Assembly (NCBI RefSeq): GCF_000003815.2
Contig: NC_049995.1
Location: 4,465,237-4,529,236, forward strand
Origin: Branchiostoma floridae
Lineage: Eukaryota > Chordata > Leptocardii > Amphioxiformes > Branchiostomatidae
Length of the DNA stretch: 64,000 nt
Reading direction: 5' to 3'
Shown here: in pieces, positions 295 through 64,000 of the stretch
How positions within the stretch are numbered: the stretch's first letter is position 1
How the letters are laid out: each line of letters starts with the position of its first letter
Position numbers and translations under genes: made by a program
Notes under the pieces: generated by a model
The model's input: the letters and a program-made list of their open reading frames with translations, nothing else
Database searches by the model: none
Told to the model about the DNA's origin: nothing

Positions 295-3200
295 CTTGCG
301 TACCATTGGTGAGATATTGAGTTGTGTCGCTCTCATTCAGCCAATTCAACAGGGTGTCGTCTAGTCTGAAATTAAGAGAAAAAGCAATTTTACTTTTGCA
401 ATTTGTGATCGACTTTCCATTAGAAATATTCTTTATCTTATTATTCATGTCTCTTCTGTCTAGAAGGGAGCATTCTATTTCAATTGTGTTACCTGTTTTC
501 TTGTTTTATATTTTCTTCTGTTGGAGACCAAACCCCGAAGCCCAACGTAATGACATGTCCGCCTATCTCGAGATAATTGCGTTTCCCTACAATTTTTACA
601 GGAAGCGGGGTGGGGGTGGGGGCGGGGGGGGGGGGGGGGGGTCCGGCATAAAAAACTTGTTGGATTCCTTATTACAACTTTAATGAATCTGTTGCAAAAG
701 TTATATGCACCTTCGTGGTACTACACTTGAAGCTATGCAATGGATTCCATCTAACGTTAATATAAAAATCGCAGGCTATTTCTACTACAAAATGTGAAAC
801 AGAAACTCACCGAAAGATGTCGCCGATCTCCTTTTGTACGGCTGGAAATCTTAAAAAATCTATCCGTCGGCCGTAGCCGTAGAACAGCATCTTGCCGAGT
901 AACATGGGCACTTCTTTGTCGCAGTGTTTCGGGCAGGAGATGGCGGCAAGTTCGTCTGGCATGGAGTTTTCTTCATCCTCAACGATCAACAGTCCGGCAA
1001 GACCACTGGCTACCTGCAATCAATCAATCAATCAATGTATCAATAAAACAATGCATTGACATATTAGATTTAAGTACTTTCAACAAAGACTCATCCTCCT
1101 TCGCCCGGTCCCCAACGGCTGACTGCCTGTTGGGGCCCTGCTGTCTCGAGGCCCACCAGCGGTTACTGTGAGCGTCGCCACAAACCAGCTGTCAGCCAAT
1201 CAGAGAATGGGCCTTTCTTGGCCTTTCTGTTTTCGAAAGGGATCACGCAAAGGCCGCTGGGAAGCCATCAGCCAATCATGTCACCTCTTACATAGCTCCA
1301 TCCTCCTACGCCCGGTCCCCAACGGCTGACTGCCCATATAAGGGTAAGGTCATTAATATTTATAAGCAGGGCGGTCAGTAACTGATCTGAGTCCTCCAGA
1401 CAGCAGAGGTGACCACAAGGAGTTTCGACACGACTGTGGTCCCTCTGCGTTGGAGAATGCACAGACTGCAACAAATACTCCAACAAATGCCTCCGCACCT
1501 GAGGCGTTGCCAAAAAGTTTTACGGTCGTTATAGCATTCATGTCTACCTTTTAGTTGAATATTGTTGATTTCTTTCTAGAATCCCTTCTTGTGTGGACAA
1601 TTTCTCTGGCTATCGAGTCCCGTAGAAATAACTGATTAATTTGTCGCTGTGAACAGTCTGTTTGGGATTTAACGGAGACAAATAAAGGATGCTTCTGTTT
1701 CGCATAAAGCCTCTCAAAGCCTCTCTCCCAAAGCATGTCGCATAGACGGCAGGTGTACACGTGAGCTTAGTCTTAGTTAGGCAAAACACCAAGGTGCTCT
1801 CATATTCGTCGTACAATACTTCCTCAATATCAGATATCGATCTCTTCATATACGTGGATTTTATATATTTCGTTTTCAAATTTACCTAGAATTACTTTCC
1901 CATGGATTTTTAGATGCTTATATTTCTTATTCTCCATGTTATTTTGACATCAGGTAATACTCAGATATTCTTATGATTGTCAGCTGTTTCATGAGTTACA
2001 ATGTCCGTGCTCCAATTCAACCCACGGGCTAATATTATCGCAACATGTAAATGCCAATCCGATAAACCATTACTACATCATCCCAACATCCAACAGCCAA
2101 ACCGCCTGTCTGGATGTGCCCTGCTCTTTCAACCGTCACCCTTAGTTCCTGTGGACGCCCCCCCCCCCCCCCAACCAGCTGTCAGCCAATCAGAGAATAG
2201 CCTTTCAGTTTTCAAAAGGGGTCTTGCGTATATAAGGGTAAGCTCATCAATATTTATAAACAGGGCGGTCAGTAACTCAGAGTGACGGTTGAAATAGCAG
2301 GGTACATCCAGACAGCCGGTTTGGCTGCTGGATGTCCCTGCGTAGGAGGATGTACCACATGTACAAACCTGGAAGTACGTAGATCCGTGGTGGTGTGCGT
2401 GGTACCAGTAGGTCCCGGCAGGCTGACGCTCGTTCAGCTCATAGTGGTACTGATACTCACTCCCCGGGTTCACCTGCAGTATGGGACAACAACAAGAATC
2501 TTCATCCCATGGGAACAAGGGATGTAGGCTTGTCAAAGTTTCTACTGAGTAAATACCCGACGGACACATCGTCAGCCTAAGACTGTCCACAGTAATTGCA
2601 AATCTTGCTCCGATAAAATATCCTGCTTACCTATTCAAGTAAATACATGCAAACACATATATCACACGCACACAACACACACGCGCGCGCGTATACACAC
2701 ACAATTGAACAAAGACACACTGAATGACACTGGCATACACACGGCAGAGAGAGAGTAGGGTGGAGAGATAGACAGAGAGAGAGACAGAGAGAGAGAGAGG
2801 GAGAGAGAGAGAGAAAGAGAGAGGGGAGAGACAGAGAGAGAGAGAGGGGAGAGAGAGAGAGAGGGACAGAGAGAGAGGGGGAGGGAGAGAAAGAGAGAGA
2901 GAGAAAGAGAGAGAGAGCGAGCGACGGAGAGAGAGACAGAGAGAGAGGGAGAGAGAGAGAGAGACAGAGAGAGAGTGAGAGAGAGAGGGAGAGAGAGAGT
3001 GACGGAGAGAGAGGCAGAGAGAGAGGGAGAGAGAGAGAGTGAGAGACAGAGAGCGAGAGAGAGCGAGAGCGAGAGAGCGACGGAGAGAGAGAGAGAGAGA
3101 GAGAGAGATGGGAGGAGAGACAAAGTAATACCTTTATCAACACATTGTCCTGCGGCTCCCTGGGTGAGATATGTAGTCCATGCACGTGCAGGTTGGTGGT

Positions 3201-3896
3201 GTTCGGGTGGCGGAATGTGTTGGGGCTGCCCTCGGCTTGGTTCTCTCCAGGTCATTTTTCTTGTAGAGGACGTGGATGGATAATTAAGGAACGTTGTATA
3301 TAGCGTACTACAGTAGATGTGGATGTCAAAGTTAAAGTATGGATACCTCGGTCCCTGCTGTTATTGGGTTCAATTATGTCTGCCCCACCTACTACATGTA
3401 TACTAAAGCTTAGATTCCAGAATCCAGACTCTAACGTGTCCACCGAGAAACTTAACACTTATAACACATAAAAAAGGGTGAAAGGACTTTCAAGAACTGG
3501 TCATAACTATGCATTTACCTGGGTATTATTTCTTAGGATTTTTCGTTTGCATCTTCCTAAATTCCCTTTCATTCTGGTGTATTTGCTATCTATTTTGACC
3601 CTTCTTCCGGGCACATTGATACATGTCTCGCTTACATTTTTCAATGTCTCTATAATTCCTGTGTATTCCGATTCATGTTGTGTATTTAGCAGAACCCGTG
3701 TGTCCACCTACCAGGAGAACGTTGACCCTGTCGCCCGCCCTGACCCGTAGTGTAGGGGAGGGCCAACCTCCGTTATAGGTCCGCCTGGTGAGGGTCAACC
3801 ACTCCACCGTGACGTCAGACACATCCACCGTCAAGGTCATGTCAAGTTTACCATCTACTGAGGACGTTTCTTCCGGTGTGATGAAATCATCTCCAC
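295..3896 (-). CDS. Multicopper oxidase (laccase/CotA-like), N-terminal half, partial
   Basis: Copper-dependent oxidase that would couple oxidation of phenols, bilirubin-like substrates or metals to reduction of oxygen. Exons in transcript order are about 3896-3712, 3242-3132, 2473-2369, 1013-811 and 365-295. Exons 1-4 join in phase 0 and keep the frame: a cupredoxin start with NGGWPSPTLRVRAGD; then NTTNLHVHGLHIS, giving the first copper histidine pair; then GTYWYHAHHHGS, the second HxH pair; then VASGLAGLLIVEDE. Exon 5 (LDDTLLNWLNES) follows a strong pyrimidine-rich acceptor and fits the phase, but its donor is weak. The later cupredoxin domains and the type 1 copper site lie beyond the left edge. 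No signal peptide was found; a further 5' exon above 3.9 kb is possible, and the 3896 acceptor is my choice. The TNLH.HGLH.SP pattern resembles the bacterial/CotA type more than insect laccase 2. Certain of family, unsure of ends. Confidence 0.82.
603..642. repeat. Poly-G rich tract
   Basis: A G-run of about 18 follows a G-rich lead (GGTGGGGGTGGGGGC). It lies in the oxidase intron between exons 4 and 5. G-runs of this length are slippage-prone and could form a quadruplex. Confidence 0.8.
1092..1430. mobile_element. Diverged copy of the CCAAT/TATA-carrying TIR element
   Basis: Related to the elements at 2076-2352 and 48342-48604. It shares CAGCCAATCAG and then a block with ATATAAGGGTAAG, AATATTTATAA and CAGGGCGGTCAGTAAC, but its ends are diverged. 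A block of about 35 bp starting CATCCTCC (near 1092 and 1300, with CGCCCGGTCCCCAACGGC) is present twice, so the copy is rearranged. It lies in an intron of the multicopper oxidase. Confidence 0.5.
2076..2352. mobile_element. Non-autonomous TIR element (MITE-like) with CCAAT and TATA motifs
   Basis: Terminal inverted repeats of about 65-75 bp: the left arm holds AAACCGCCTGTCTGGATGT and the right arm the complement, ACATCCAGACAGCCGGTTT. The centre carries CAGCCAATCAG, a TATATAAGG box and GGGCGGTCAGTAACTC. The outer left end is degraded. No coding capacity. The right end lies 17 bp from the splice donor of the exon encoding the HxH copper motif. No clear target duplication. Confidence 0.7.
2640..3118. 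repeat. CA-rich then (GA)n microsatellite
   Basis: 2640-2705 is CA/CG dinucleotide rich (ACACACGCGCGCG). From about 2744 to 3110 it is an imperfect GA tract broken by GACA, GAGC and GGGA variants. On the minus (sense) strand it is a long CT tract just after the splice donor of the HVHGLH exon. The long Ser/Leu ORFs here are artefacts of the repeat. Confidence 0.95.
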
Positions 3897-46353: not shown

Positions 46354-49300
46354 ATGGCCGCCGCTCCCAAAGACAGCGCAGTTCGTCTTCGTTCCTACCA
46401 AGACGAGAGCTATTTGCATGGGTTTCTTGGAACTGTGGGCGACTTACAGAAGGCTGGGATACTGCAGGATGTCGTCCTTGAAGTCGAGGGCCGGCGGTTT
46501 CCCTGCCATCGGCTTGTTCTGTCCGCGGCCAGCCCCTACTTCAGGGCCATGTTTACAAGTGACATGGCGGAAAGTCGTCACAAGACGGTTGTATTACAGG
46601 TAGGTTTGTGTAACATTTAGGGTAAATAAAACAAAAATGGGGACCTACAAAGATGCTAAGTATTCTAAAGAAATGTTGAGAACTTGGGGAGCGCATAATT
46701 TGTAACTTATAGTTAAGCTTTCTTGTGATGATATGTGATGATATGTGATCTTGTCCCCCTTCCCGTGTATCTCTTTTGTTTTGAACTTTTTATATCAACT
46801 TTGCTGCCTTCTTGAAGCACTTAACACTTCAATGGATGATTAAATGTTAACAATAATTCTGTGCAGTGAGTTATACCAGGGATATTATCATAATGTATTT
46901 GTTTATTTATGTAGTTATTCATGTTATTGTTATTTATCAAGGCATCATGACAAAGACTGAAAAAGACTACATTTGTCACATTATGTACATTAGTAACATC
47001 ATGATGATCTGTTGTGTTGTAGCGTTCTTACAGAATTTATTCAAAGTTCGTTTGTTATTAAATTGTATCAAACTCTACATGTAGGGTTTAGATGTGGCCA
47101 TGTTTGTGGAGATCCTGAGTTACATCTACTCTGGAACCCTCCATGTGTCCCTGGACAAAGTGCAGCCCCTGTACCAGGCAGCCGACCTCCTCCAACAGGA
47201 CTATGTGAGAGACACCTGCAGCAGCTACATGGCCTTCAATGTGGAACATGGCACCTGTGTGGAGCTGTACAAGTTTGCTGATGTCTTCTCTGTGGACATT
47301 GTCCTGAAGCATTGTCTGCAGTGTATCTGCAAGCACTTTGTGACGGTTGGTATTCTTTTATGTTTTGATAACTCTTTTAACATTAAAAAAATATTTTCAG
47401 GCATATACTTGACAGCCTCTAATCTAGAGACCTTATACATGTCATATGCTTTACCTGATCCAGATGACCATTCACTTGAAACTCATCAAGTTAGCAATGG
47501 AGAAAAGCTGATTGCAAAAAAGGTGTAAGCCTCTGGCAATCTTCTGGTAAAAGTTGTTCATAAAGCATAGTTTCAGGCATATACTTGACAGCCTTTGAAT
47601 CTCCCTACATGAAGAAATGCATGTATTTGGCATCTCCACAGCTTGCATCCAGTGATGAGTTCTGCAGCCTGAGTGTGAATCAGCTGACTAAGATCATCAG
47701 CTACGATGAGCTGGATGTTAAAGAGGAAACAACAGTGTGGGAGGCTGTGGTGAGATGGGTGCAGCACAGCAGGGAGGACAGGTGGGATTTGTTCACTCAT
47801 GTCTTAATTGCATTTATGAGTGCAGAAATTTTAATGACTAATCTAAACCAATTTGTTGAAGAGATTCTGCAGTGAGTTGGTAAAACGTTAAACCCCTACC
47901 GTGTACCCCACAGGCTGCACCACCTTCCCAGCATCCTCCCTCACATCCGCTTCAACCTGATGACCCCAGAGGACAAGACAGCCATCTTGGAACACCCTCT
48001 GGTCAGGGAGGATCTTGGGAGTTCTAAAGTCATCAGGGAAAGGGCAAAGAAAAGGAAACTGAAGCCGAGACTTGGGATGACAACGGAAATGCTTCTGCTG
48101 TATGATATGGGGTATGTAATACTTCTTCCTCGTTTGACGTAACTTAGTAGATTAGGAACAATCCTACCATAATACTATTCCACATTTTGTGATCCTGATA
48201 AACACACTTCCACAGTGTCAATTATGTAGATATACTCTGCTCCAACTTATACTTTTAAAACTTCTCAAGAAGCTACATTTGATAAACAAAACAATTTAAT
48301 GCTGTGAGTTTGGCTTCATTCTTGAAGGAAATGTTTTTAATCATCCTCCTATGTAGGGACAATCCAACGGCGAAACCGCCTGTCTAGAGGTACCCTGCTT
48401 TCTCAACCGTCGCTCTTAATTCCTTTGGGCATCGCCACTAACCAGATATCAGCCAATCAGTTTTCAAAAGGGATCTTGCATATATAAGGGTAAGCTCATT
48501 AATATCTATAAGCAGGGCGGTCAGGAACTAAGAGTGACGGTTGAGAAAGCAGGGTACATTCAGACAGGCGGTTTCGCCATTGGATGTCATCGCGTAGGAG
48601 GATGTTTTCAATTTGATGTCCAGTCTCATTGATAATTTCTGATGTATCTTATTCTCCACAGGAAAGGCGATCTCCTCTTCTTGAACCCTCAGAAAGGGAA
48701 GTACATCAGTGACGAAGATGATATCTTTCCTGATAGCGCTGGTAAAACTTTCACCAGTGATTATAACATTTATGCGCTAGAACATGACTTAGACGATTCC
48801 GGTCAGATGTCCATGTTCAAGTACAACCATGCAGGCAATGAGTTTGAAGATGCTGGTATGTCTACAGTATCAAAGTTCCAGAGAGAGTACTCCGGTTGGC
48901 CCACTTACTGGGGCGAGTCCCTTATTGAAGTTGATCAGATTTTATATTACATCGCTGCTAATTTAGGAGAAGGCAGTGGATGGGTCCGTATGAAAAAGTA
49001 CAGTCGGCAGAAGGACCAATGGCAGGAGTGTTCACAGCTGCGACTTGATGGAACTTGGCATCGCAGCGCCGCATTGTCCTGTGGTCCGTACCTCTATTTC
49101 ATCCTGACCTCAGCAATGTATTGCTACGACCCAAGTCAGGACTGTTGGAGCGAGCGAAACCCACCAAATCTTGAGACTCGTCACTCGTTCCTCACAGCTG
49201 TTGCCATGGGAACAGAGATTTTCTGCACAGATATCGACTTCAATCAAACTAGGGTGTATGACACAGAGTCAGGTCATTGGAAGACACTGCAAGGCTGGCC

Positions 49301-49607
49301 GAATCAGGGAAACCTTCGTACCCATGAGTATCCACATCTTTTTGTACTTGAGAACCAGCTGCATGTACTTTTAGATGTCTATGACACTGCCAAAGAAGGA
49401 CCATCAGGAAAGTATCTGGTGTATGTGTATGACAGGTCTGCTGATGCCTGGAGAGACTTGAAGGCCGTCCTTCCTGATAAGGAATATCATATACTTGACC
49501 GTCTGTCCTCTGTGGCACGTTTATACCTACCTTTTCTAAAGGGAGCACAAAATCTCATCACCTCTTATGCAATCCGGCAGGATAAGAACACAGAGAGTAT
49601 GGCATAG
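46354..49607 (+). CDS. BTB-BACK-Kelch protein (KLHL/KBTBD family), copy 1, 596 aa
   Basis: Likely substrate adaptor for a Cullin-3 ubiquitin ligase. Exons 46354-46599, 47085-47345, 47642-47781, 47914-48111 and 48662-49607, phases consistent. The BTB domain (about residues 25-130) shows [20 protein letters not shown] and [12 protein letters not shown] in exon 1 and [17 protein letters not shown] in exon 2. BACK follows ([41 protein letters not shown]). The last exon holds a degenerate Kelch propeller ([38 protein letters not shown]). The start is the AACATGGCC ATG; an out-of-frame ATG lies 65 bases upstream. It is a tandem duplicate of the gene at 50940-55979. The last intron carries a TIR element the other copy lacks. 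Exact orthologue not assigned. Confidence 0.92.
48342..48604. mobile_element. TIR element with CCAAT/TATA cassette, intact copy in a Kelch-gene intron
   Basis: About 75-bp inverted ends starting CATCCTCCTA and ending TAGGAGGATG, with CGAAACCGCCTGTCT and AGACAGGCGGTTTCG inside. Flanks TTTTTAAT and TTTTCAAT match at 7 of 8 positions, a probable 8-bp target duplication (hAT-like). The centre holds CAGCCAATCAG, ATATATAAGGG and CAGGGCGGTCAG as in the 2076 copy. Confidence 0.85.
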
Positions 49608-50939
49608 TCTACTACATACAGCCAATGCAGGGCAGAACTGTTAAGTTAAAGAACATTTTTGTTTAGGTCTGGATTTTACCATATGTTACTATAATTGTGT
49701 TAATTGTTGAGACCACTCTTGTGTAATGGGATGAAGTTTGTCTTAATATGTTTATCAACACAGATGACGGTTTGTGATAAAACAGCATGTAAACCCGATA
49801 TATGCGTGTTTCTGTGTGTGTCACTGTTTGTTTTTGTGTGCATTTACAAGTGTGTGTACATGTGTGCATGCATGTGAGTGTGCAAATACCTGAGTACCAA
49901 TTTAAGCAGATGTGTTTTTCATATATGGTTATAAAAAGTTTCAGTTTAATAAGAAAAATCACATCTTGAACTATGAACTCTAGGAGGAGTTTTGTCATTT
50001 GCTTCCAGAGATATGTCCAGGAATTTGCCAAAGCGTTTATGTTGAAAGCACATCAAAACTTGTTGATCACTCAAAATCGCTTACTTAAATATAATTGATA
50101 ATTGCTGTAAGACCTAGTAGACCATACTGTAAATGCAGGAACTTTCGCGGTGGATTGATGTTCGCAGTTTTTGCGGCGGCCGTTTCACCTCAAACTTAAA
50201 ACCACCGCAAACATTCTTGCGAATTTAAAACCACCGCGAAAAGTTCTTTTTCTCCGCTATTGCAAAATTAAATCCCTGAGAACTTAGATACATTTACAGT
50301 ATTTGAACATGCACAACACGCATTAATTTTGTATTCTTGAAAAATGGAGGTGTTGTTTTTAGCATATCATAATCACATTAAAACTACTGGTATTGTTTTC
50401 AGCATTTCATACCTTGAAAAATGAAGATATTGTTTCCATAGCAATTACATTAATAACCTCTTGGTGGATTTTGATGATACATGTACAACGTATCTGACAT
50501 GTGGGTTGGTCCAGGGCAGACAAAGAGGAAGGTTAAGAGGCAGATAGCTTTTGATGTCAGGAAGAAGCAATGTACGTTTGGACCACCTTGTAGCTTCTTT
50601 TGTAACTGCAGAAGCGTTTTGTCTCAAGCTTGAAAGAGTGTGACTGAAGACAATCGCTTCTGATATTCTGGTTTTCAGTCAATAAAGAGAGATTCAAAGA
50701 GCTGCAGTTTCCATGAGAACTGCAGGGCCATAAAATACAATGTAACTCAGCCACTTAATGCGTCAAAACTCCTCTTTGTAGCATGGAGGCCACCTTTTCA
50801 CTTAAATCGATTCTTCGAAAACGTAGCAATTACGCAATCGGTAGACCTGATCCTCTACCTCATACCGCTACATTATGTGGGTAATCAAAGTACGGAAGCA
50901 GTTCCCTCCGGGAAGTACAGCTCCGCCATCATCATCAAC
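49608..50939. other. Spacer between the two BTB-Kelch copies
   Basis: Holds the 3' flank of copy 1 and, from about 49690, the duplicated upstream region of copy 2. An inverted-repeat element of the TACTGTAAATGCA family with GCGGTGG/CCACCGC motifs lies at about 50127-50300. No independent gene seen. Confidence 0.6.
50127..50302. mobile_element. 'TACTGTAAATGCA' palindromic repeat
   Basis: Begins ATACTGTAAATGCAGGAACTT and ends TACATTTACAGTAT; the interior alternates TTTCGCGGTGG with CCACCGCGAAAA and TTGCGAATT. Related sequence occurs at about 52033-52155 and 53455-53562 in the second Kelch gene. Small TIR element family with no coding capacity. Confidence 0.65.
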
Positions 50940-53900
50940 ATGGCCGCCGCTCCCCAAAAGTGCTTAGACAACGAAGTTCGTATTCGTTCCTGCCAAGACG
51001 AGAGCTATCTGCACGGGTTTCTTGGAATCATTGGCGACCTACAGAAGGCTGGGGTAATGCAGGATGTCGTCCTTGAAGTCGAGGGCCGGCGGTTTCCCTG
51101 CCATCGGCTTGTTCTGTCCGCGGCCAGCCCCTACTTCAGGGCCATGTTTACAAGTGACATGGTGGAAAGTCGTCACGGGGCCGGGGCGGTACCGGTTGTT
51201 TTACAGGTAGGTTTGTGTAAGCTTGAGGGGAAATCAATCAAAGTATGGAACTTAAGAAGATTCTACGTATTATATAGAGCTGTTAAAACTTGGGGAGCGC
51301 ATAATTTGTGTTCCCAACAAGTATAGTCAAGCTTTCTTGTGATTTGTGATCTTGCCCCCCCCCTCCCCTGATGTACTAGTATCGCTTTTGTTTCAATACT
51401 TTAAATGTCAACTTTGCAGCTTTCACCGAGAACTCAAAACTCTTTTCAGACTTGAATAAATGGTGAACTGTTAAATATACTTTGTGCATTTTGTCACAAT
51501 GTCCTTATGTAGTTATGTCATTTTTTTTGTTTACCAAGGCATAATGACAAAGACTGTAATAGTGTATATAACGGTTATCTGTACATTATTAGTGACATAA
51601 TTATGATTTGTTGTGCTGTAGTGATCTGAAAGAATTGAGGTTAAGTTCATTTGTTATTACATCCAACTCTACATGTAGGGTTTGGATGTGGCCATGTTTG
51701 AGGAGATCCTGAGTTACATCTACTCGGGAACCCTCCATGTGTCCCTGGACAAAGTGCAGGCCCTGTACCAGGCAGCCAACCTCCTCCAGCTGGACTATGT
51801 GAGAGATACCTGCAGCAGCTACATTTCCATGAACGTGGAGCGCTCCACCTGTGTGGACATGTACAAGTTTGCTGATGTCTTTTCTGTGGACATTGTCCTG
51901 AAGCGTTGTCTTCAGTGTATCTGCAAGCACTTTGTGAAGGTTGGTATTCACTCTAAAATTTAAATTGACTTAGGAATATAGATGACAGGCCCTAAAAACC
52001 TGATAATATGATTTCAGCACAGTAGAAACAAATACTGTAAATGCATTTAATTTCGCGGGGATTTAATTTCGCGGTAGCGGCAAAATGGACATTTCGCGGT
52101 GGATTTAATTTCGCGGTAGCGCCATCCCGCGAAATTCAATGCATTTTCAGCACTGCACTGTAGTCACGAACTGCCGTGTAAAACCCGGCGCCTCTACAAA
52201 CCGCCAGTCGGAAAACACTTGCTGGTTACCCGGTAAGGGTCCTATACAGACGGATAGAACAGTTTCCATGCTTTTGACTTGTTCTTGCGTGAGCCACTGT
52301 TACTGATCTAATCGTATCTACCCTCTCAATACGTAATAGTATACAGTAGTACGACCTTTGTATCATGGTGAACATACTGTACAGTACTGTAATACAGTTG
52401 GTCGTATGAAAAAATTACATGTGTGTCGTCAGTCAAGACTTCACCGTAGTAAGTACGAGGGCGGTTCAAAAAGTAATGCCACTGGTTTTATAACAGGCTC
52501 ATTTTTTCACCGAATGAGTTGCAATTTGGCACAGAGGTACAAGAATATATCCTCTTGAGATTGACATATCTCAATTTGTTGTTAAGATTTTTATAAGTGA
52601 CTGAGTTGAGTTCAAGATGACCACACCCTTGTTATCCCGTCGGAAGAAATTAGAGGGTCAATTAACGTGCAATTGATAATGTCTCTAAATCACTTACAGC
52701 TATTGTAAGGAACTAAAATTGCACATGTATCAAGTTGCATTTCTCTATAAGCCACATGCCTATTTTTATCTTTTAAATACAATCACTTATCATTTTTTCG
52801 TTCCTGATGTGAAGTAAGGTCGTCAGGGTCGTAATTAGCGGTGGATTAGGGGTGGTCTGCTTAACGTTTCCATAACCGACTTTTTTATTAACTGAGAAAA
52901 ATCAAACTTAACACACTTCTTGATCTTAAAACAGTTAATAATTGTGCTAAGTTTCGCATCTTTTGGCTAATGGAAAAGCAGTCTACAAAGACCTTTATTC
53001 AACAAATCACGTATTTGACTATTAATCAAACTGCCTGTAATATAGTAACTCGCTCCATTCTAGTGGCTGTAAAAGATGAACCATTGTGAGTTCAAACATG
53101 AAATTTGGTATGTAATCTATAGAGACATTTGTTATTGTACATGTAAAATTTCGGCTCCCTACAATAATTCTAAAATGGTAAGATCTAGAGGAACTGATCT
53201 CCTGACAAGCTTTTAAGGGTGTGGTCATCTTAAAATCATCTCAGTTGCTCATAAAAATTTGCACCACAAATTGAGATACATCAATCTCAAGAGGATATAG
53301 TCTTGTACATCTGTGCCAAATTTCAACTCATTCGATGAAAAAATGAGCCTGTTATAAAACCAGTGGCATTACTTTTTGAACCGCCCTCGTATGTCAAACA
53401 TTTCATTATACAGTGACAAAGACAGTAGTAGTATGTACATGGAGCGGAAAAGGCGGCGCCTGCAGACGAAATATTCGCGGTGGATTTAATTTCGCGGTGA
53501 AGCGGCCGCCGCGAAAACCGCGAATATTAATCCACTGCGAATATTTCTGCATTTACAGGAAGATGAAAGCTTCTGGTAAAAGTTGTTCATATACGAGGGG
53601 CGTTCAAGAAGTAATCCACCTGACCCACTTCCAGTTGTCTGATCTAGATGAAATTTTGCATATGTAATGATTCATATCTCTATGGGTTATGTTGCAAAAA
53701 ACAGCTCTGAACTAATTGTGGTTTTTGATTTAAAGGTGTTTGAACTGAGTCAGGTGTGAAATGGACCAGGTGTGAAATGGAGCCAGTTGAGTGTCGCGCA
53801 GTGATCCGGTTTTTGTATTTGAAAGGACGCATACCAAATGAGACTTTTGAGGAAATAAAAGAAACTTATGGTGATGATTCCCCATCATATGACCTTGTAA

Positions 53901-55979
53901 AACGCTGGCATTGTGAATTCAAACATGGCCGGAAGTCTGTGGAAACAGCTCCCAGACCTGGTTGTCCCTCTTCTGCCATTGATGAGGCATCTGTTGCAGG
54001 ACCAACCTGGGGCGTCCTACAAAAACGGTGTACAGAGCTGCATCAAACGATGGTAGAAATGCATAACTCTGGCTGATTCCTATGAAGAGAAAGACTAATA
54101 ACTGCACCAAGTTTCATTAATCTCCTCCTTTGGGAAATGGGTCAGGTGGATTACTTCTTGAACGCCCCTCGTAGTATACACATATATGAATCTCCATATA
54201 CGGGAAGAAATACATGTATTTGGTATCTCCACAGGTTGCCTTCAGTGAGGACTTCTGCAGCCTGAGTGTGAATCAGCTGACTAAGATCATCAGCCGTGAT
54301 GAGCTGGATGTTAAAGAGGAGACAACAGTGTGGGAGGCTGTGGTTAAATGGGTGCAGCACAGCAGGGAGGACAGGTGGGTGTTGTAAAGTTCTGAACATG
54401 GATATCTGTCTTGTGCCTGCTTCAATGCATGTGTGATTGCAGGTTTCATGTCTATCTGTCAATGAGAGTCACCTTCTAGAATTCTCTGCAGTGACTTGTG
54501 AGTTGGCAAAACGTTTAACCCCTACCCTGTACTCCACAGGCTGCACCACCTACCCAGCATCCTTCCCCACATCCGCTTCAACCTGCTGACCTCAGATGAC
54601 ACGGCAGCCATCTTGGAACATCCCCTGGTCAGGGAGAATTCTGGGAGTTCTAAGGTCATCAGGAAAATGGTTAAGAAAGGGAAACATAACCTGAAGCCCA
54701 GACTTGGGATGACAACAGAATTTCTTCTGTTAAGGGATATAGGGTATGTAATGCTTCTTCCTTGTTTAATTCAGTAGATTGGGAACAATCTTGCCATACT
54801 GTTAGTCCACATTTTGGGGCCTTGCAAAGCACACTTTCATATATAGTGTCAGTCCTGTTGATATGCTATGCACCTAATTCAAACTTGTACTTTGAACACT
54901 CCTCATGAGGCGAAATGACTAGAATTGATGAATGACACAACTTGAAGATGTGAGTTTGGCCTTATTCTTAAAGAAAAAAGTTTGAATCTTCAGTCTATTC
55001 TCATTGACAATTTATGATGTGTCTTATCCTCTCCAGGACAGGCGATCTTCTCTACATGAACCCTCAGAAAAGGAAGTACATCTGGCATCCTGATATCTTT
55101 CCTGATAGCGCTGGTACAGCTTTCACCAGCGATTATAATATTTATGTGCTGGAACATGACAGAGATCATACTGGTCAGTTGTCCATGTTTAAGTACAACC
55201 ATGCAGGCAATGAGTTTGAAGATGTAGGAATGTCTACAGTATCTGAGTTTCAGAGAGAGTACTCAGATACGTCCACTGACTCAAGGCAGTCCCTTGTTGA
55301 AGTTGGTCAGACTTTATATTACGTTGCTGCAGATTTAGAAGAAGGCAGTGGATGGGTCCGTATGAGAAAGTACAGTCGGCAGACGGACCAATGGCAGGAG
55401 TGTTCACAGCTGGAACTTGAAGGAACTTGGGAATGCAGTGCTGTACTGCCCTGTGGTCCTTACCTCTATTTCATTATGACCTCAGCCATGTATCGCTACG
55501 ACCCAAGTCAGGACTGTTGGAGTGAGCGAACTCCACCAAACCTCGAGTCACGCCACTCATTCCTCTCAGTTGTTGCCATGGGAACAGAGATTTTCTGTAC
55601 AGATAGTGACTTCAATCAGACCATGGTGTACGATTCAGAGTCGGACCATTGGAAGAAACTGCAAGGCTGGCCGAACAGGGGAAACCTTGGCACCAATAAC
55701 TGGCCATATTTTTTCCTACTAGAGGACCAGCTGCATGTACTGTTAGATACCTATGACACTACCAAAGAAGGATCATCAACAAAGTATCTGGTGTATGTGT
55801 ATGACAGGTCTGCTGATGCCTGGAGAGACTTGAAGGCCATTCTGCCTGATACGGAATATTATACACTCGGTCATCTGTCCTCTGTGGCACGTTTATACCT
55901 ACCCTTTCTAAAGGGAGCACAAAATCTCATCACCTCTTATGCAATCCGGCAGGATAAGAAAACAGAGAGTATGGCATAG
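50940..55979 (+). CDS. BTB-BACK-Kelch protein (KLHL/KBTBD family), copy 2, 604 aa
   Basis: Tandem paralogue of 46354-49607 with the same five-exon structure: 50940-51206, 51679-51939, 54235-54374, 54540-54743 and 55037-55979. Domains correspond one to one: BTB ([39 protein letters not shown]), BACK ([31 protein letters not shown]), and Kelch repeats ([25 protein letters not shown]). Differences include a KCLDNE insertion near the start, GAGAVP before the first junction, and many Kelch-surface substitutions such as WHRSAALSC to WECSAVLPC. That could mean diverged substrate choice. Intron 2 (51940-54234) is much longer than in copy 1 because of mariner-type insertions; the last intron lacks the TIR element of copy 1. 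Likely a Cullin-3 adaptor; specific target unknown. Confidence 0.92.
52033..52155. mobile_element. 'TACTGTAAATGCA' palindromic repeat
   Basis: ATACTGTAAATGCATTTAAT at the left and TTCAATGCATTTTCAGCAC at the right, with repeated TTTCGCGGTGGATTTAAT and a complementary CGCGAAATT. Same family as 50127-50302; intron 2 of Kelch copy 2. Confidence 0.6.
52454..53391. mobile_element. Mariner-type element with ~180-bp TIRs, non-autonomous
   Basis: Ends TACGAGGGCGGTTCAAAAAG and the complementary CTTTTTGAACCGCCCTCGTA, including the TA target. The inverted arms continue for about 180 bp (CCACTGGTTTTATAACAGGC, ATCCTCTTGAGATTGA, GATGACCACACCCTT). The interior of ~550 bp shows no transposase reading frame. 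Located in intron 2 of Kelch copy 2. Confidence 0.85.
53455..53562. mobile_element. 'TACTGTAAATGCA'-family fragment
   Basis: GCGGTGGATTTAATTTCGCG and the complementary CGAATATTAATCCACTGCG with a TGCATTTACAG end. Third copy of this small palindromic family within 3.5 kb, between two mariner elements. Confidence 0.55.
53592..54173 (+). mobile_element. Internally deleted mariner element
   Basis: Perfectly matching ends TACGAGGGGCGTTCAAGAAG / CTTCTTGAACGCCCCTCGTA with TA target, the arms extending through GTAATCCACCTGACCCA. About 580 bp against about 1.3 kb for a full mariner. The plus-strand ORF retains only the transposase DNA-binding part, so it cannot move on its own. Confidence 0.9.
53777..54076 (+). 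pseudogene. Mariner transposase N-terminus (HTH domain only)
   Basis: The second ATG in the frame (53777; an earlier in-frame ATG is at 53762) gives a 99-codon ORF that starts [18 protein letters not shown]. It continues with a [19 protein letters not shown] segment and [11 protein letters not shown], the mariner helix-turn-helix (HTH_48-like) pattern. The catalytic DD34D half is missing, replaced by a short out-of-family tail before a stop. DNA binding to its own ends could in principle survive; transposition cannot. Confidence 0.8.
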
Positions 55980-58040: not shown

Positions 58041-61000
58041 ATGTTGAGAGTCTGTGAGAATCTCCGTGAGGCGGACGAAAAGGGCAGGAGGTACGGACTA
58101 GCCCGTGCGGAGACAGGCTACCTCCGTGCCCTGGTGGACGCAGTGGCTGAAAAGGACAGGCTGGCGGAAGTGGAGCTGCTCAAAAGTCTGGGGGACGTGA
58201 ACTTGGAGAAAGGAAGACTCAAGAATGACGTAGGGAAGTTGAACATGGCCTTGGCACTATACATAGCTGCTGTGGTCCGGTGTGACCATCGGGAGCAGGG
58301 AGAAAGTATAGAACATCGTTACGAATACGCGGAAAGGCTTTTACAAGGGGTGTCGTCAAAGGGGTCAGACGGTAAGGAATTACCATCTGATGACAAGGAG
58401 ACAACAACACCTGCAAAGGTGGCGGGGAAGTTTCAAGACTTGGACAAGACACAGGCTACCGGTGGTAACACAAAGTCTTTGCTGGTTGGATACGCTCAGT
58501 TGATGGTAGAGGGAATAGTTACGGAGAACAACATGTTAGAAGCAGAGGCGATTAAAAGTCTCGGTGACTTGTACCTGAACAGAGGGAAAGAAACCCTAAA
58601 CAATAGAGACTTGACCAGAGCTACTGCCCTGTACAATACGGCATTGTCGCGGTGTAACAACATGCAGGGAACAGTTGCCATTGTTCACCGCTTACTGCGC
58701 ACCGCAAAAATCAGACGGGACATCACCGCGACTGAAACCAAGGTAAGCGATTTATTTTCACTTCTGACAAGAAGGGACAGTCACGAAATATGACCACTGT
58801 CAGGGATGACAAGTTCATGAATTCGAACCATAGGTCATTTTCAATTTGGTAAGTGCTGTTCTGTGTTCGTTGGATAAGATTTGGTAGTGTATCGTAGTTT
58901 GTTGCCTCCTCAAGGCTTTGTTTACGATGTAACGTTATATTATGTTGGTACGTGTACGTGTTTATTAAGTGGGTGGGGAGAATGGGCTCAGCGCAAAGGT
59001 CAGCCTTGGCAGTGTCAGATCGGAAGTGGCAGGTTGTACACGTAGGACTAAATCATTTATTTGACATGACAGAATTTACAGGTCATTGGGCAGTGGAAGA
59101 GGCTATCAAAAACGGGGAGTCTTTGGTTTTGGTGTGTCAGTGTTTAGTAGTAACATATATATTCCAGTCACGTACACCGTGACAGGATGATCAAAAGGCA
59201 GTTAGTAGTATGTTTATCTTATGTATATTCTATATTGGGAATAGACTTGTGGGTTGGACTTTGGCCTTACATAGATCAAGAAAGCCCGTCTCTTTGTCGC
59301 TTTATTTATTCCAGCTGAATCTGTAGTGATAGTATAATTGTCGATCTGTGCATCACGTACGGGATTTTTCTACCAGTTGTCTTAGAGGTTAGAGACGTTG
59401 AAAAATTCAATGTGTTTTCACTATTTTCGGTTGTGGGTATGCGAAGGTTTTGGCCAGAGGGCACAATATGCCCTGTAACGTCAGTCGGAACACTCGAAAC
59501 ATTCCTTTGCCTTGGCCTTCCTCCTCGAATATGGCCTCTGTAAGTAAGTTCATTTGTGTATAACATGACCCCCTGTTAAAAATTAAAGGTAGTCGCATAG
59601 CCTTTTGGCTGTGGTAAAGGTAGTGTGTTGTTATCCACTGTGTCCAGGACATGATACTGCGAAGGCAAAGTACAATGGAGGATTCTTTCTCCTTCCACGG
59701 CATTAAGCGTCGCCAATCGAAGTCGGATACCCAAATTACACCAAGGTGGAACGAAGAAAGTCATGTAACGCGCCTTTCCCATGGATATAATGCCTAGCCA
59801 GAAAGGCCAGGAATCGAACGTATGGCCTCTCGAAGAATGTGTCCCCTGGCCGAAAGCCAGGACTAAACTGCTGGGAAGGTCATTCCTTCACTCTGCTGTA
59901 CATGTAAGACTGTACAACGACTCACTTGCTTACAAATAGGTCTCTTGTTGGCCAACCCGTTGTTTATACTCATCTAACGTTTGTAAAATAATTTATAGAT
60001 TAAGTGTGGTGGTTTATTTGTATGTAACAGTTATTTGTGACAGATAAACACAATACAGGAAGGCTTAGCTGTTTCCTGCTTATGTAATTTTATTTTAATA
60101 AACATTGAAAGATCTAGCTACTGGCTCACACGGCCATTCGACAATAATCGTTTTATAATCAATTGTATACTACTTCTATCGGCTCTCGTAGAGGTCAACG
60201 CGTAAGAAACGGCATCAAGACGTGAGAGGACGGAAGGACCACTCCTCTTCCTTGTCAGATGTATCTTCAAGTGACGTCATCGATGACGACAAGCGCCGAC
60301 TGAGCATGTAAGTACTTGGGGGGGGGGGGGCTCTGGTTCTCTTTGGTTCTGTCTGAAACATTTGGTCTTCTAGTAAGTGTTGATCTTGCTAAGTCCAGTC
60401 TTCATACATAAGAAGATAATGGTTTGCATGAAAGATCATCTGTGTTGGTATAATCCATATTGAAGTTTTGAGCTGTCTTTCTACACAACAAATTACTCAC
60501 CTCAAATATTCGACGTGAGCTGGAACACGTGACTAGAGTAAAGAATTATAGATGCCTGGCAAGCGGTATCGGCCCCCGTCTCTGACCACACCAGGCGACA
60601 CTTAACAGAGACGGGGGTCGATACCGCTGACCAGGCATTTACTATTCTTTGATCGAGTCACATGTCCCTAGGTCACGTAATTGAATCACCATTCCTGGCA
60701 AAGGTCAACGGATGTGCGACCGAAAATCTGAGGTGAACTATGTCTTGTGTTGAAATACAACTAAAAAATTCAATAGATCTATGATAATGGTTTATTTTGT
60801 TGGTTTTAGCTCCTATCGTAGGTACATCCAGACTGCAGAGTGTGACTTGGGAAATGGAGACCTGGACGCAGCAGAGCAGAACTTAGCTGCCGCCTTAAAG
60901 ATTATTCACGGTCTGTCATACACTTTCCATTATTACAGAAGATAACTAAAATAACATATTTCATATTTATTAAGATACTTAACTTCACACTTGATAAACG

Positions 61001-64000
61001 AATTTCAATACCCTGATTTTATATGTACCTTTCATGGTTAAAGCACATTCTTAAAGTCAATACAACTAAGCAAAATATATCTGTTCAAGGTGGATAGATT
61101 CTGACATTTTCAACTTACTATTTACAGATTCAAGTAAGCCAGACAAGGCCAAAGAAGCCGACTGTCTGTGCAGGTTGGGTGACGTCTACGTCGAGCGAGG
61201 CAAGCGGACAGAAGAAGGTAGGAAATTCACACAGGCAGCAGCTCTGTATAACGCCTCAATGGCCAGAACCGATCAAGATGAACAAAACTTGATCAAAAGA
61301 CTACAAGAAACAGAAATGCAGTTTCTAAGGAACACCTGTAACATAGACTGTGAACCATGTTCGTACAGAAGCACGCTAGATCACATTAAGGAATTGGGCA
61401 ACATGCGCGTCAGTATAAAATCTCAGCTGGGTACAATTCATCAGGAACACAACCCCTATCAGTATGATGAAGATGATCCCATCGTAAGAGAAGTAGAGAT
61501 CAAACGAGCTGAAGCGATCAAGAACTTGTTCAAGAGCATAACAGTTGAGAGGAAAGAGTTTATCCAAACACTGACAGATGAATGTATTGCCAAACTCGGA
61601 CTTCCACCATGTAAGTACGCATTCATCGGGTTAGGCTCACAGGCAACAGAACTGGTCACACCCTACTCTGACCTGGAGTTCGCCATTCTGATTGAGGAAG
61701 GGAAGGACGATGATGATACACGGAAGTACTTCCTAAACCTTACGCACTACTTACATCTAAAAGTCATTAACCTTGGGGAAACTATCCTCCCTGCGATGGC
61801 CATCCCGTCACTGAACGACTTCCTCTCGGAAGACCCAGAGGAAAATTGGTTCTTTGACTCCCTCACTCCTCGTGGTTTTGCATTCGATGGCCTAATGCCC
61901 TGGGCTTCTAAGACTCCTTTTGGAAGAGACAAATCCGAAAGCAAACCTCCAGTCAGTCTCATTCAGACGCCTGCCGAGTTGGCAGAATATCAACATATAC
62001 ACATCGCCCTGGCGGAAGGCTACCACCTGTCAGACATCCTCAGACGGGTGACCTACTTAACAGGAGACGAATCCTTGGTAAATGAGTATACAGACAGAGT
62101 GAACAAAATCTTTGATCGTTCACCTGTACTGTCGAGGCAATCAGCTCTACTAATACTGCGGGATGATATTCGGAAAATAGAAAATGATAAGCCACTGACT
62201 GGAGAACTCCTGGATGTCAAGAAAGAAATATATCGTTTTCCCAGCGTAGCCGTTGATCTGTTGAGTGTTTTCTGCAGTATAACGGTCCCCAGTATATGGG
62301 GCATGATAGAAGAATTGTACAAGACGCAAAGGATAACTCACGAAGATGCCCACCATTTGACTGTACTAATCAGCATCTCAGCGGAGCTACGGTTAAGAAC
62401 GTACACTGCCAATGGAGGACAGGATAATAGACTGTCTCCCCTCACTAGAATGGAAATCCAACTAGATAAACATGACATAGATGACACTTTCGTTCAGACA
62501 GTTTTCTACGTACCGGACTCAAAAATGCTTTTCAGGTACTATTACACTTCCATCCCACTAAAAAGCTGCATTCTGGATGTAGTTGTAGAGACAAATCAAA
62601 CGAAAAATATATTTCCAACACCCATTTTTGATACTTCATCTCTAACAAGAGGCCGAATGACACACCAACTGCTCCATTTCGATGCATCCATATATCATTT
62701 GGAAAAAGCTCTTAAAGAGGTGGGCAGTGACCAAAGAAAGCAGTTTGAAATACTTTTCGAACTAGGCGATACCTTGCATAAACGCGGTAACTTTGAGAAA
62801 GCGATCAGCTACTGCAAACGGTCACTCAGAGTTAGAAATACTATCTACGGAAGTAAAGTGCATCCAAACATTGCCGCATTGCTTGAAAACATCGGAGCAT
62901 GTTGTTGTAAACTCGGCGACCAGAGTAAGGCCCTCATTCATTTAGAACAGTCACTAAAGATCAAGAAAGCTCTGTATGGTGAAACAACAGCACATCCCGA
63001 AATTGCCATATCTTTACACAACATTGGAGCATGTTGGAGTGAGCTTGGAAATCAGAATAAAGCTATAAGTCTCTATGAACAGTCACTAAAGATGGGGAAG
63101 GCTATCTATGGTGAGGAAACTATACATGTCAACATTGCTTCATCTTTAAACAACATCGGAGCATGCTGGAGTAAATTTGGTAATCAGAGTAAAGCTATAA
63201 GGTATTACGAACAATCACTGAAGATGACAAAAGTTATCTACGGTGAAACAACAGCACATCCCGATACCGCCTCACTACTCAACAACATTGGATCATGTTG
63301 GAGTGACCTTGGTGATGACACGAAAGCTATTCGTTTCTACAAACAGTCACTGAAAATGAAGAAGGCTATCTATGGGGAAACAGTTGACGGTGTACATCCA
63401 GACATTGCCTCAACACTGACAGGCATCGGAACATGTTGGATAAAACTTGGAAATCAGAGGAAAGCGATCAGTTATCTTGAACAGTCATTGAAGATGATGA
63501 AAGTTATCTATGGCGAATCAGCAGCACACCCCGACATTACCACATCGCTGACAGGCATTGGATCATGTTGGAGTGACCTTGGTCATGACAAGAAAGCTAT
63601 TAGGTACTTCGAACAGTCACTTAAGATGAGTAAAGGTATCTACAATGAAACAACCTCACATCCCGACATTGCCTCATCTTTAAACAACATTGGATCATGC
63701 CTTAGAAAACTCGGGGATCAGAGAAAAGCCGTCAATTATCACGAACAGTCACTGAAGATGGCCAAAGCTGTCTATGGCGAAACAACAGCACATCCCAATA
63801 TTGCTACATCACTGAACAGCATTGGACTATGTTGGAGTGAGCTTGGCGATCAAAGGAAAGCCATCAGTTGCTACGAGCAGTCACTAAAGATGAGGAAAGC
63901 TGTCTATGGCGAAACAACAATACATCCCGAGATTGCGTCATCACTTAACAACATTGGAAAATGTTGTAGTAAGCTTGGCGATCAGAACAAAGCCATCAGT
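58041..64000 (+). CDS. TPR - GlnD/DUF294-like nucleotidyltransferase - KLC-type TPR giant, partial
   Basis: Exons 58041-58742, 60192-60307, 60810-60910 and 61128 to the right edge (open at 64000); phases 0, 2, 1 agree; 1264 residues visible. The amino part has three ~43-residue TPR-like units (KSLGDVNLEKG...ALALYIAAVVRCD; KSLGDLYLNRG...ALYNTALSRCN; RLGDVYVERG...ALYNASMARTD). Around residue 472 comes FIGLGSQATELVTPYSDLEF. The GS...E..P.SD.E pattern resembles the GlnD/DUF294 nucleotidyltransferase active site, with candidate carboxylates D488 and E490. From about residue 845, at least ten repeats of 44 residues (HPDIASSLNNIGSCWSDLGD, then KAIRYYEQSLKMKKAIYGET) follow the kinesin-light-chain TPR pattern. 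No substrate can be named. The catalytic third carboxylate was not located, so activity is unproven. A pseudoenzyme is possible. Confidence 0.85.
59580..59885 (-). mobile_element. tRNA-derived SINE (family B-like), minus orientation
   Basis: On the minus strand, a tRNA-like head with B-box GTTCGATTCCTGG lies near 59800-59820. A body follows with ATGGGAAAGGCGCGTTACA and GACTTTCTTCGTTCCACC, parallel to the family B body at 25328. Then comes GTGGATAACAA. Intron 1 of the NTase-TPR gene. Confidence 0.55.
60485..60770. mobile_element. Foldback element in intron 2 of the NTase-TPR gene
   Basis: Inner arms near 60525-60600 and 60605-60662 are strong complements: ATGCCTGGCAAGCGGTATCG against CGATACCGCTGACCAGGCAT, with GGCCCCCGTCTCTG / CAGAGACGGGGGTC inside. 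Outer arms (ACTCACCTCAAATATTCG / AAAATCTGAGGTGAAC) are more diverged. No ORF. It ends about 40 bp before the acceptor of the next exon. Confidence 0.75.

Follow-up and report, generated by a model that had tools for sequence, protein, structure and literature searches.

The window analysed here, a stretch of 64,000 nucleotides of the Branchiostoma floridae genome (contig NC_049995.1), carries close to its end, on the forward strand, a gene whose predicted product joins a nucleotidyltransferase (NTase) module of the DUF294/DrrA type to a long array of tetratricopeptide repeats (TPRs), and whose NTase module recurs across the same genome. The reading that we favour, which in our estimate stops just short of being probable, is that the module is an active enzyme of the Pol-beta fold that would transfer AMP to a protein selected by the TPRs, in a family that has been multiplied around this activity. 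The original prediction had placed in one open exon an NTase motif followed some 370 residues later by 44-residue TPRs, and this is what the complete exon contains: the first TPR of the array starts near residue 849, about 375 residues past the motif, and a regular expression finds 18 units, at steps of 44 (15 times), 46 (once) and 88 residues (once), some 20 units being recognized by eye. The array makes up about half of the protein. The union of an NTase-type core with a TPR array in an animal is likewise borne out, by a G-S / D-x-E motif that is intact and by one more invariant acid besides the two of the motif, and the match is not due to chance, since the module reaches E 1e-50 against Neochlamydia and recurs at 100 loci. 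The parts of the protein are the following.

61150..61270 (+): pre-NTase unit (LGDVYVERG..QAAALYNASM), common to the Neochlamydia relatives
61514..61960 (+): DUF294-type nucleotidyltransferase core (PF03445; alignments A2 and A4)
61634..61678 (+): active-site motif G476-S477-x10-D488-x-E490 (G-X11-D-X-E), invariant in the aligned modules
61886..61888 (+): predicted third carboxylate, D560 (GFAFD), invariant in the aligned modules
61961..62449 (+): C-terminal all-helical half of the module, limits approximate; K and R of KKEIYRF are invariant, and the second of the stretches that match DrrA 6yx5 lies here
62735..64000, on to 65431 (+): kinesin-light-chain-like array of 44-residue TPRs (TPR_12, 234.7 bits, cut-off 30.1)

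The motif lies in GLGSQATELVTPYSDLEF, which starts at residue 474, and D488 and E490 are, in a gene model of 1740 residues, exactly the residues that had been named beforehand. Together with G476-S477 they are kept in all of the 40 animal and 21 bacterial modules aligned, and D560 is invariant in the same 61 copies. The 40 animal copies, that of the window included, are the 30 best and the 10 lowest-listed of the 100 loci and not a random draw, and one that has a stop (L058) is counted only as far as the stop; G, S, D, E, the third D, K and R are found in 40 of 40, and the E of NLGET and the P of TPFG in 39 each. An alignment of 22 rows, made of the window module and the 21 bacterial modules, many of them out of the same few genomes, has as invariant G, S, YSDLEF, the E of NLGET, the D of GFxFD, K and R; it was built without the split-frame copy L013/L031, the truncated L016/L026 and the partial rows of L011, L004, L033 and L001, the third gene of the last being taken via L002. 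The spacing G476-X11-D488-X-E490 conforms to the motif Gly-X11-D/E-X-D/E given for DrrA and GS-ATase, in which Asp110 and Asp112 of DrrA are described as critical (PMC8097203). The G-S / D-x-E core and the third Asp would bind two metals and the nucleotide.

PF03445 (DUF294) is matched at 28.6 bits by the 417-residue module, above the cut-off of 21, at 27.6 bits within the protein of the window open reading frame (ORF), and at 18.3 bits by a 164-residue cut of the module, in which the blocks NLGETILPA and GFAFDG..KTPFG are specific to the family. In the pre-NTase unit the columns L-G-D-Y and Q-A-A-L-Y-N are invariant in the 4-row alignment A1; used alone as a query, the region rendered weak plasmid matches, the best at E=0.2. 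Residues 1-375 give TPR-like signals only, and no match to an F-box at E up to 10.

The module in bacteria and in the host genome

A tblastn search of plasmids rendered one strong record, a plasmid of Neochlamydia sp. S13 (E 3e-45, 89% of the query, 11 places), and two others at E 0.01 and 0.4. Three proteins of the S13 plasmid share 32-35% identity with the animal module over ~400 residues (E 1e-50 to 3e-46), and in RS10325, the sole Neochlamydia protein compared with Pfam, the matches to F-box, DUF294 and TPRs all exceed their cut-offs. From this layout we take the three proteins to be members of NEX2, a family that has been published for strains other than S13 and that comprises 50 proteins with C-terminal TPRs, of which the majority carry an F-box, most carry DUF294 and ten carry OTU (PMC4209131). 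Such proteins resemble that of the window in the mid-protein position of the DUF294 NTase (most members), in the C-terminal TPRs and in forming a large birth-and-death family; they are unlike it in the N-terminal F-box of the majority, in the OTU of ten and in the type III secretion signal of the member tested (PMC4209131), the animal protein having N-terminal TPR-like units, no F-box that we could find, and introns in its gene.

Since NEX2 was published with such a layout, the order F-box, DUF294, TPR was already known in Chlamydiae, and the 'undescribed system' of the original prediction is so only in part (PMC4209131). What appears to be new is the animal side, namely a family of this size in an animal and its relation to the bacterial proteins. 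No description of an animal DUF294-TPR family was found among the matches listed in the open-licence PMC literature; the main text of a lancelet pangenome paper contains neither TPR nor nucleotidyl (PMC12373286), and an eLife paper describes, in its relevant part, other Branchiostoma expansions (PMC8195603).

The proposed search among taxa, carried out with the module on bacterial collections, found relatives in genomes of Chlamydiota, of the order of a Rickettsia-titled MAG and of Amoebophilaceae. With alignment A1 as the query, the genome contig collection rendered 14 loci (98 stretches matched the pattern, of which 15 passed tblastn), hosted by Amoebophilaceae, Rickettsia-titled metagenome-assembled genomes (MAGs), a Rickettsiaceae MAG, a Cytophagales MAG, Alphaproteobacteria and Chlamydiae. 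Profile A4 found matches in 17 of 116 Chlamydiota genomes, at least 20 having been scored in each of four; in 6 of 131 genomes of the order of G002, a Rickettsia-titled genome; and in 12 of 198 genomes of the class of the Amoebophilaceae genome, strongly in the latter alone, the partial matches of the other 11 (~21-45 bits) being what we take for ordinary DUF294 proteins. Most genomes in those groups are therefore without the module. The bacterial lineages named are known to live intracellularly. No match was found in phages at E up to 1, in the genome contig and viral contig collections when scanned with a single sequence, or in the viral contigs when searched with alignment A1.

Among the loci of Amoebophilaceae and Rickettsia-titled MAGs (L003, L004, L005 and L006), L004 and L005 are single frames of more than 2700 residues, the former with a second, partial module match, and three NTase-TPR genes stand in one contig of Amoebophilaceae. 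In the Rickettsia endosymbiont of Labidopullus appendiculatus the module copy (L013/L031) is split over two frames, and it is therefore probably a decayed or misread gene.

In the host genome, of which the assembly searched measures 513 Mb, 104 matches were merged to 100 loci (four of them had been split in two), 100 of 316 candidates having been scored; the figure of at least 100 loci of the NTase module is thus a lower bound. Internal stops are absent from 96 of them and present in four. The loci are spread over 17 of the contigs C1-C19 plus five more, and are often clustered, as between 17.94 and 18.07 Mb of C7. Two loci (L069, positions 1-919, and L070, positions 1-262, both gene-oriented) have upstream of them some TPR sequence and a piece of an NTase that runs into N, and more copies than those scored may therefore exist. 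Duplication would have led to these 100 or so members, or more, with the enzyme kept and the arm changed.

A maximum-likelihood tree, unrooted, was built from 24 animal modules (of the 40 copies fetched, with that of the window and without L058) and the 21 bacterial ones. The animal rows all fall on one side of a branch (support 96/92) and the bacterial groups are kept apart, one chlamydial row having a very long branch. Intracellular bacteria carry the same module in effector-type proteins, and for this reason it probably moved between them and animals, in either direction. That the source was a eukaryote, from which intracellular bacteria captured a host gene as an effector, is somewhat unlikely, and would be compatible with each of the enzyme readings discussed below. 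The F-box of the Neochlamydia copy and those of NEX2 members, ten of which have OTU, speak for a eukaryotic source (PMC4209131). So does the fact that in the unrooted tree the animal rows are not nested in the bacterial ones. It is opposed by the greater diversity of the bacterial rows in that tree, by the weak DUF294-type matches in genomes of the class of Amoebophilaceae, and by the wide occurrence of ordinary DUF294 proteins in free-living bacteria.

Comparison with known nucleotidyltransferases

Profile A4 rendered six matches to PDB sequences at E up to 10, three of them to DrrA chains. The best PDB match other than TPRs is DrrA 6yx5, with E 4.7e-8 for the whole sequence (2.6e-8 with the longer profile A2), in two stretches, one in the NTase core and the other in the C-terminal helices. 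The other A4 matches are HI0073, GlnE and MntA (E 0.02-0.46), and GlnE and MntA have been described as adenylyltransferases (PMC8097203, PMC7641770); a phmmer search of PDB with a single sequence rendered one chance-level match. Protein AMPylation is our best guess because the best match among solved structures is DrrA, an AMPylase of Rab1. The adenylyltransferase domain of DrrA/SidM (6yx5, 3nku) is like the animal module in the profile match, which includes core and helical half, and in the motif G-X11-D-X-D/E. DrrA has been called an NTase-HEPN fusion, and the C-terminal domains of GlnD, GlnE and DUF294_C have been assigned to the HEPN superfamily, without its active-site motif (PMC3710099). 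We infer from the alignments that the window protein has the NTase-HEPN layout of DrrA and that the C-terminal helical half of its module is HEPN/DUF294_C-like. DUF294_C itself has no match in the window module; in the 11 relatives scanned, it exceeds the cut-off of 22.5 in two, L010 and L015, stays under it in L008 and in Neochlamydia RS10325, and is absent from the matches listed for the other seven.

The mechanism that we propose would thus involve an NTase core, behind it a helical domain that is probably HEPN-like, and then a long TPR arm; the enzyme would transfer a nucleotide, likeliest AMP from ATP, onto a protein, and the groove of the TPRs would pick that target. Several observations weigh against it. 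The similarity to DrrA is low, 36 bits in total, with E 0.014 and 0.06 for the single stretches, and DrrA has Asp112 as the second acid of the motif where the animal protein has E. SidM_N (PF20879) reaches 14.8 bits on the module, under its cut-off of 27; one Neochlamydia relative has three matches to the GlnD model, of 12.5-17.5 bits, all under cut-off; and it is from alignment that D560 is placed and an HEPN-like fold predicted. We know of no TPR array in DrrA.

It can also be the case, although we consider it unlikely, that UMP or another nucleotide is transferred in a metabolic or regulatory reaction like that of GlnD, with the TPRs as a scaffold. The core motif of E. coli GlnD does align (GGYGRGELHPLSDVD; hhalign E=0.0005), the sub-cut-off matches of the Neochlamydia relative point the same way, and PF03445 is described as related to PII uridylyltransferase; the hhalign probability, however, is 32% over 50 columns, limited to the core motif, the window protein does not match the NCBIfam model of GlnD even at E up to 0.1, neither HD nor ACT appears in the complete Pfam list of the module or among the 25 of 31 families listed for the window ORF protein, and the DrrA match is better and spans two domains. 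A kinship with GlnD specifically, as first suggested, thus gives way to DrrA and DUF294, which are nearer. The module is like DUF294/DUF294_C proteins, GlnD and GlnE in its core, above the PF03445 cut-off, and in its helical C-terminal domain, and differs from them in that no HD or ACT was seen and in the presence of the two blocks NLGETILPA and GFAFDG..KTPFG and of the TPR arm.

A shade less likely still is the synthesis of a nucleotide second messenger triggered by a ligand, as in cGAS-like receptors (cGLRs), OAS and bacterial CD-NTases. The module and these enzymes belong to the same wide superfamily, and its arm is variable. Large cGLR families have been described in animals (PMC9980059). 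On the other hand, Mab-21 and OAS are absent from the four Pfam families that match the module at E up to 10, PADLOC rendered no match for the module and only a TPR model for the window ORF protein, and the closest profile matches are protein adenylyltransferases; the kinship with MAB21 or OAS that had been considered is not supported by this Pfam result. Membership was accordingly rejected for MAB21/OAS, which have no Pfam match, for MntA, whose model NF047752 scores 13 bits against a cut-off of 60, and for GlnD, whose model has no match.

Selection and the proposed role

In 45 pairs of paralogues the ratio of nonsynonymous to synonymous substitution rates (dN/dS) is 0.15-0.39 for the NTase and 0.27-0.67 for the TPRs, the latter being above the former in 43 pairs, with one pair tied at two decimals and one lower that go against the trend. 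The catalytic module is under purifying selection, with dN/dS of 0.25 in 16 disjoint pairs. The alternative left by the original prediction, a pseudoenzyme scaffold, which would hold partners by means of the TPRs, is very unlikely: it can appeal to a catalytic activity that is predicted from sequence alone and to an array that takes up about half of the protein, and is opposed by the G, S, D, E, third D, K and R of 40 animal copies out of 40 and by a module dN/dS of ~0.25.

For the arm, 234 TPR units were compared, in which variability is among the highest at positions 2, 5, 9, 12 and 13 and equally high at 17, 22 and 31; the entropy is biased at some positions because the regular expression that finds the units fixes them. 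Positions 2, 5, 9, 12, 13, 33 and 34 have been given as the most variable of TPRs and as their concave ligand face (Magliery and Regan, PMC1261162). Our groove positions were chosen after inspection of the entropy and without 33 and 34, a choice that was not blind, and for these five (2, 5, 9, 12 and 13) dN/dS is 1.05 (bootstrap 0.77-1.43; 16 disjoint pairs), compared with 0.35 (0.32-0.40) for the rest of the array. The surface of the TPR arm, above all its groove, is either little constrained or driven to vary; groove positions vary in TPRs generally. A groove shaped for the choice of targets is made less probable by its dN/dS, which is not significantly above 1, by exposed control positions (17, 18, 22, 29 and 31) that are nearly as fast, at 0.82 (0.57-1.15), and by the single positions 5, which is slow (0.43), and 22, outside the groove, which is fast (1.50). 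When groups were pooled, the groove exceeded 1 in four of six, and the exposed control exceeded the groove in two of six. Positive selection on the groove, hinted at by the pooled groups, was not upheld in the 16 disjoint pairs.

A signalling or immune role is plausible for a large family that has a conserved catalytic module and variable TPR positions, and the size of the family, its clustering, the variability of the arm and the kinship with effector-type bacterial proteins suggest one in defence. We infer, then, an activity, AMP as its nucleotide, a protein as its substrate, the TPRs as its selector and a role in the defence against, or control of, intracellular bacteria. The most specific form of this proposal, which we regard as rather unlikely, is an animal innate-defence repertoire in which metazoan AMPylases of a third kind, descended from bacterial effectors and numbering 100 to 300 germline paralogues in one chordate, would couple a constant DrrA-like writer to a diversified TPR groove and mark proteins of intracellular bacteria or host GTPases usurped by them. 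Against our reading as a whole, residues 1-375 match no death-fold domain or other immune adaptor (E up to 10), and only two NEX2 members are predicted to be secreted, the one tested having a working type III secretion signal (PMC4209131).

The animal family is like the coral TPR-CHAT proteins, with their hundreds of copies, tandem clusters and very variable TPR lengths (PMC12314368), and TPR-CHAT is also a chlamydial expansion, PEX2 (PMC4209131). It differs from the coral family in that the enzyme is an NTase and precedes the TPRs. CHAT itself resembles a protease. Of the four chlamydial expansions, NEX2 (DUF294-TPR) and PEX2 (TPR-CHAT) thus parallel large animal families, here and in corals, kinship having been examined for DUF294-TPR only (PMC4209131, PMC12314368). 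Because two chlamydial expansions have animal families of like layout, a trade of modules between hosts and intracellular bacteria becomes testable. TPR motifs also set the specificity of FICD, for BiP (PMC8065156), and the relevant part of a 2021 review gives Fic and SelO as the only two classes of metazoan AMPylases identified (PMC8097203). Fic/FICD and SelO are unlike the animal NTase family in their folds. To our knowledge they are not large families. If our reading of the module as an AMP-transferring enzyme is true, some 100 or more animal genes with an intact DrrA/DUF294-type site could constitute a third, large class of metazoan AMPylases. The homology also connects a gene repertoire of an animal with effector-type families of intracellular bacteria.

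Gene model and genomic setting

At 61070-64000 (+) there is an open frame of 977 codons that extends past the end of the window, and the frame of exon 4 reaches its stop codon at window-equivalent position 65431. The gene model comprises four exons, from 58041 to 65431 (+), with consensus splice sites and phases that agree.

58041..58742 (+): exon 1 (model), between the first in-frame ATG and donor GTAAGC, spliced in phase; two 'LGD' TPR-like units
60192..60307 (+): exon 2 (putative), a basic/Ser-rich linker; acceptor GCTCTCGTAG, donor GTAAGTAC, phases agree
60810..60910 (+): exon 3 (model), a TPR-like helix pair; acceptor TTGGTTTTAG, donor GTCTGT
61128..64000, on to 65431 (+): exon 4, one long exon with the pre-NTase TPR-like unit, NTase, helical domain and TPR array

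Exon 4 starts at 61128, directly after CTATTTACAG. The splice between exons 3 and 4 is supported because, once these are joined, a TPR_12 match (30.6 bits, cut-off 30.1) crosses the join. By reading, a mini-exon like exon 3 was recognized in 10 of 10 paralogues (in L068 only partly) and an ORF like exon 1 upstream in 8 of 10, none being seen at L072 and L077. The TPR matches in the region of exon 1 are all sub-threshold, and there may be an additional exon upstream of it. The exon joins are predicted from the letters, and exon 2 is the least certain of the four.

Other ORFs of the window match models of Spot14, fibrinogen C, BTB and kelch, which indicates an animal chromosome. Bacterial contamination or an assembly artefact, to which one could be led by relatives outside the host genome that are all bacterial (in a search without a eukaryote collection), can be dismissed in view of a contig (C17) of 19.1 Mb, exons in phase, the animal-type ORFs just named that adjoin the gene, 100 loci distributed over the contigs given above, and 24 tree copies on one side of a branch.

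Two kelch-type ORFs, at 48636-49607 and 55008-55979 (+), have 323 residues each, match Kelch_1 barely above cut-off, are closely similar by eye and start ~6.4 kb apart; between them lies a BTB ORF at 50664-51326, with BTB at 46.8 bits, and together they are probably tandem KLHL-like genes. At 2129-3360 (-) there is a stretch of low complexity, with frames that are mostly Ser/Leu, which adjoins an ORF with a match to Cu-oxidase_3 (multicopper oxidase; 24.6 bits, cut-off 21) and is probably a simple repeat within an intron.

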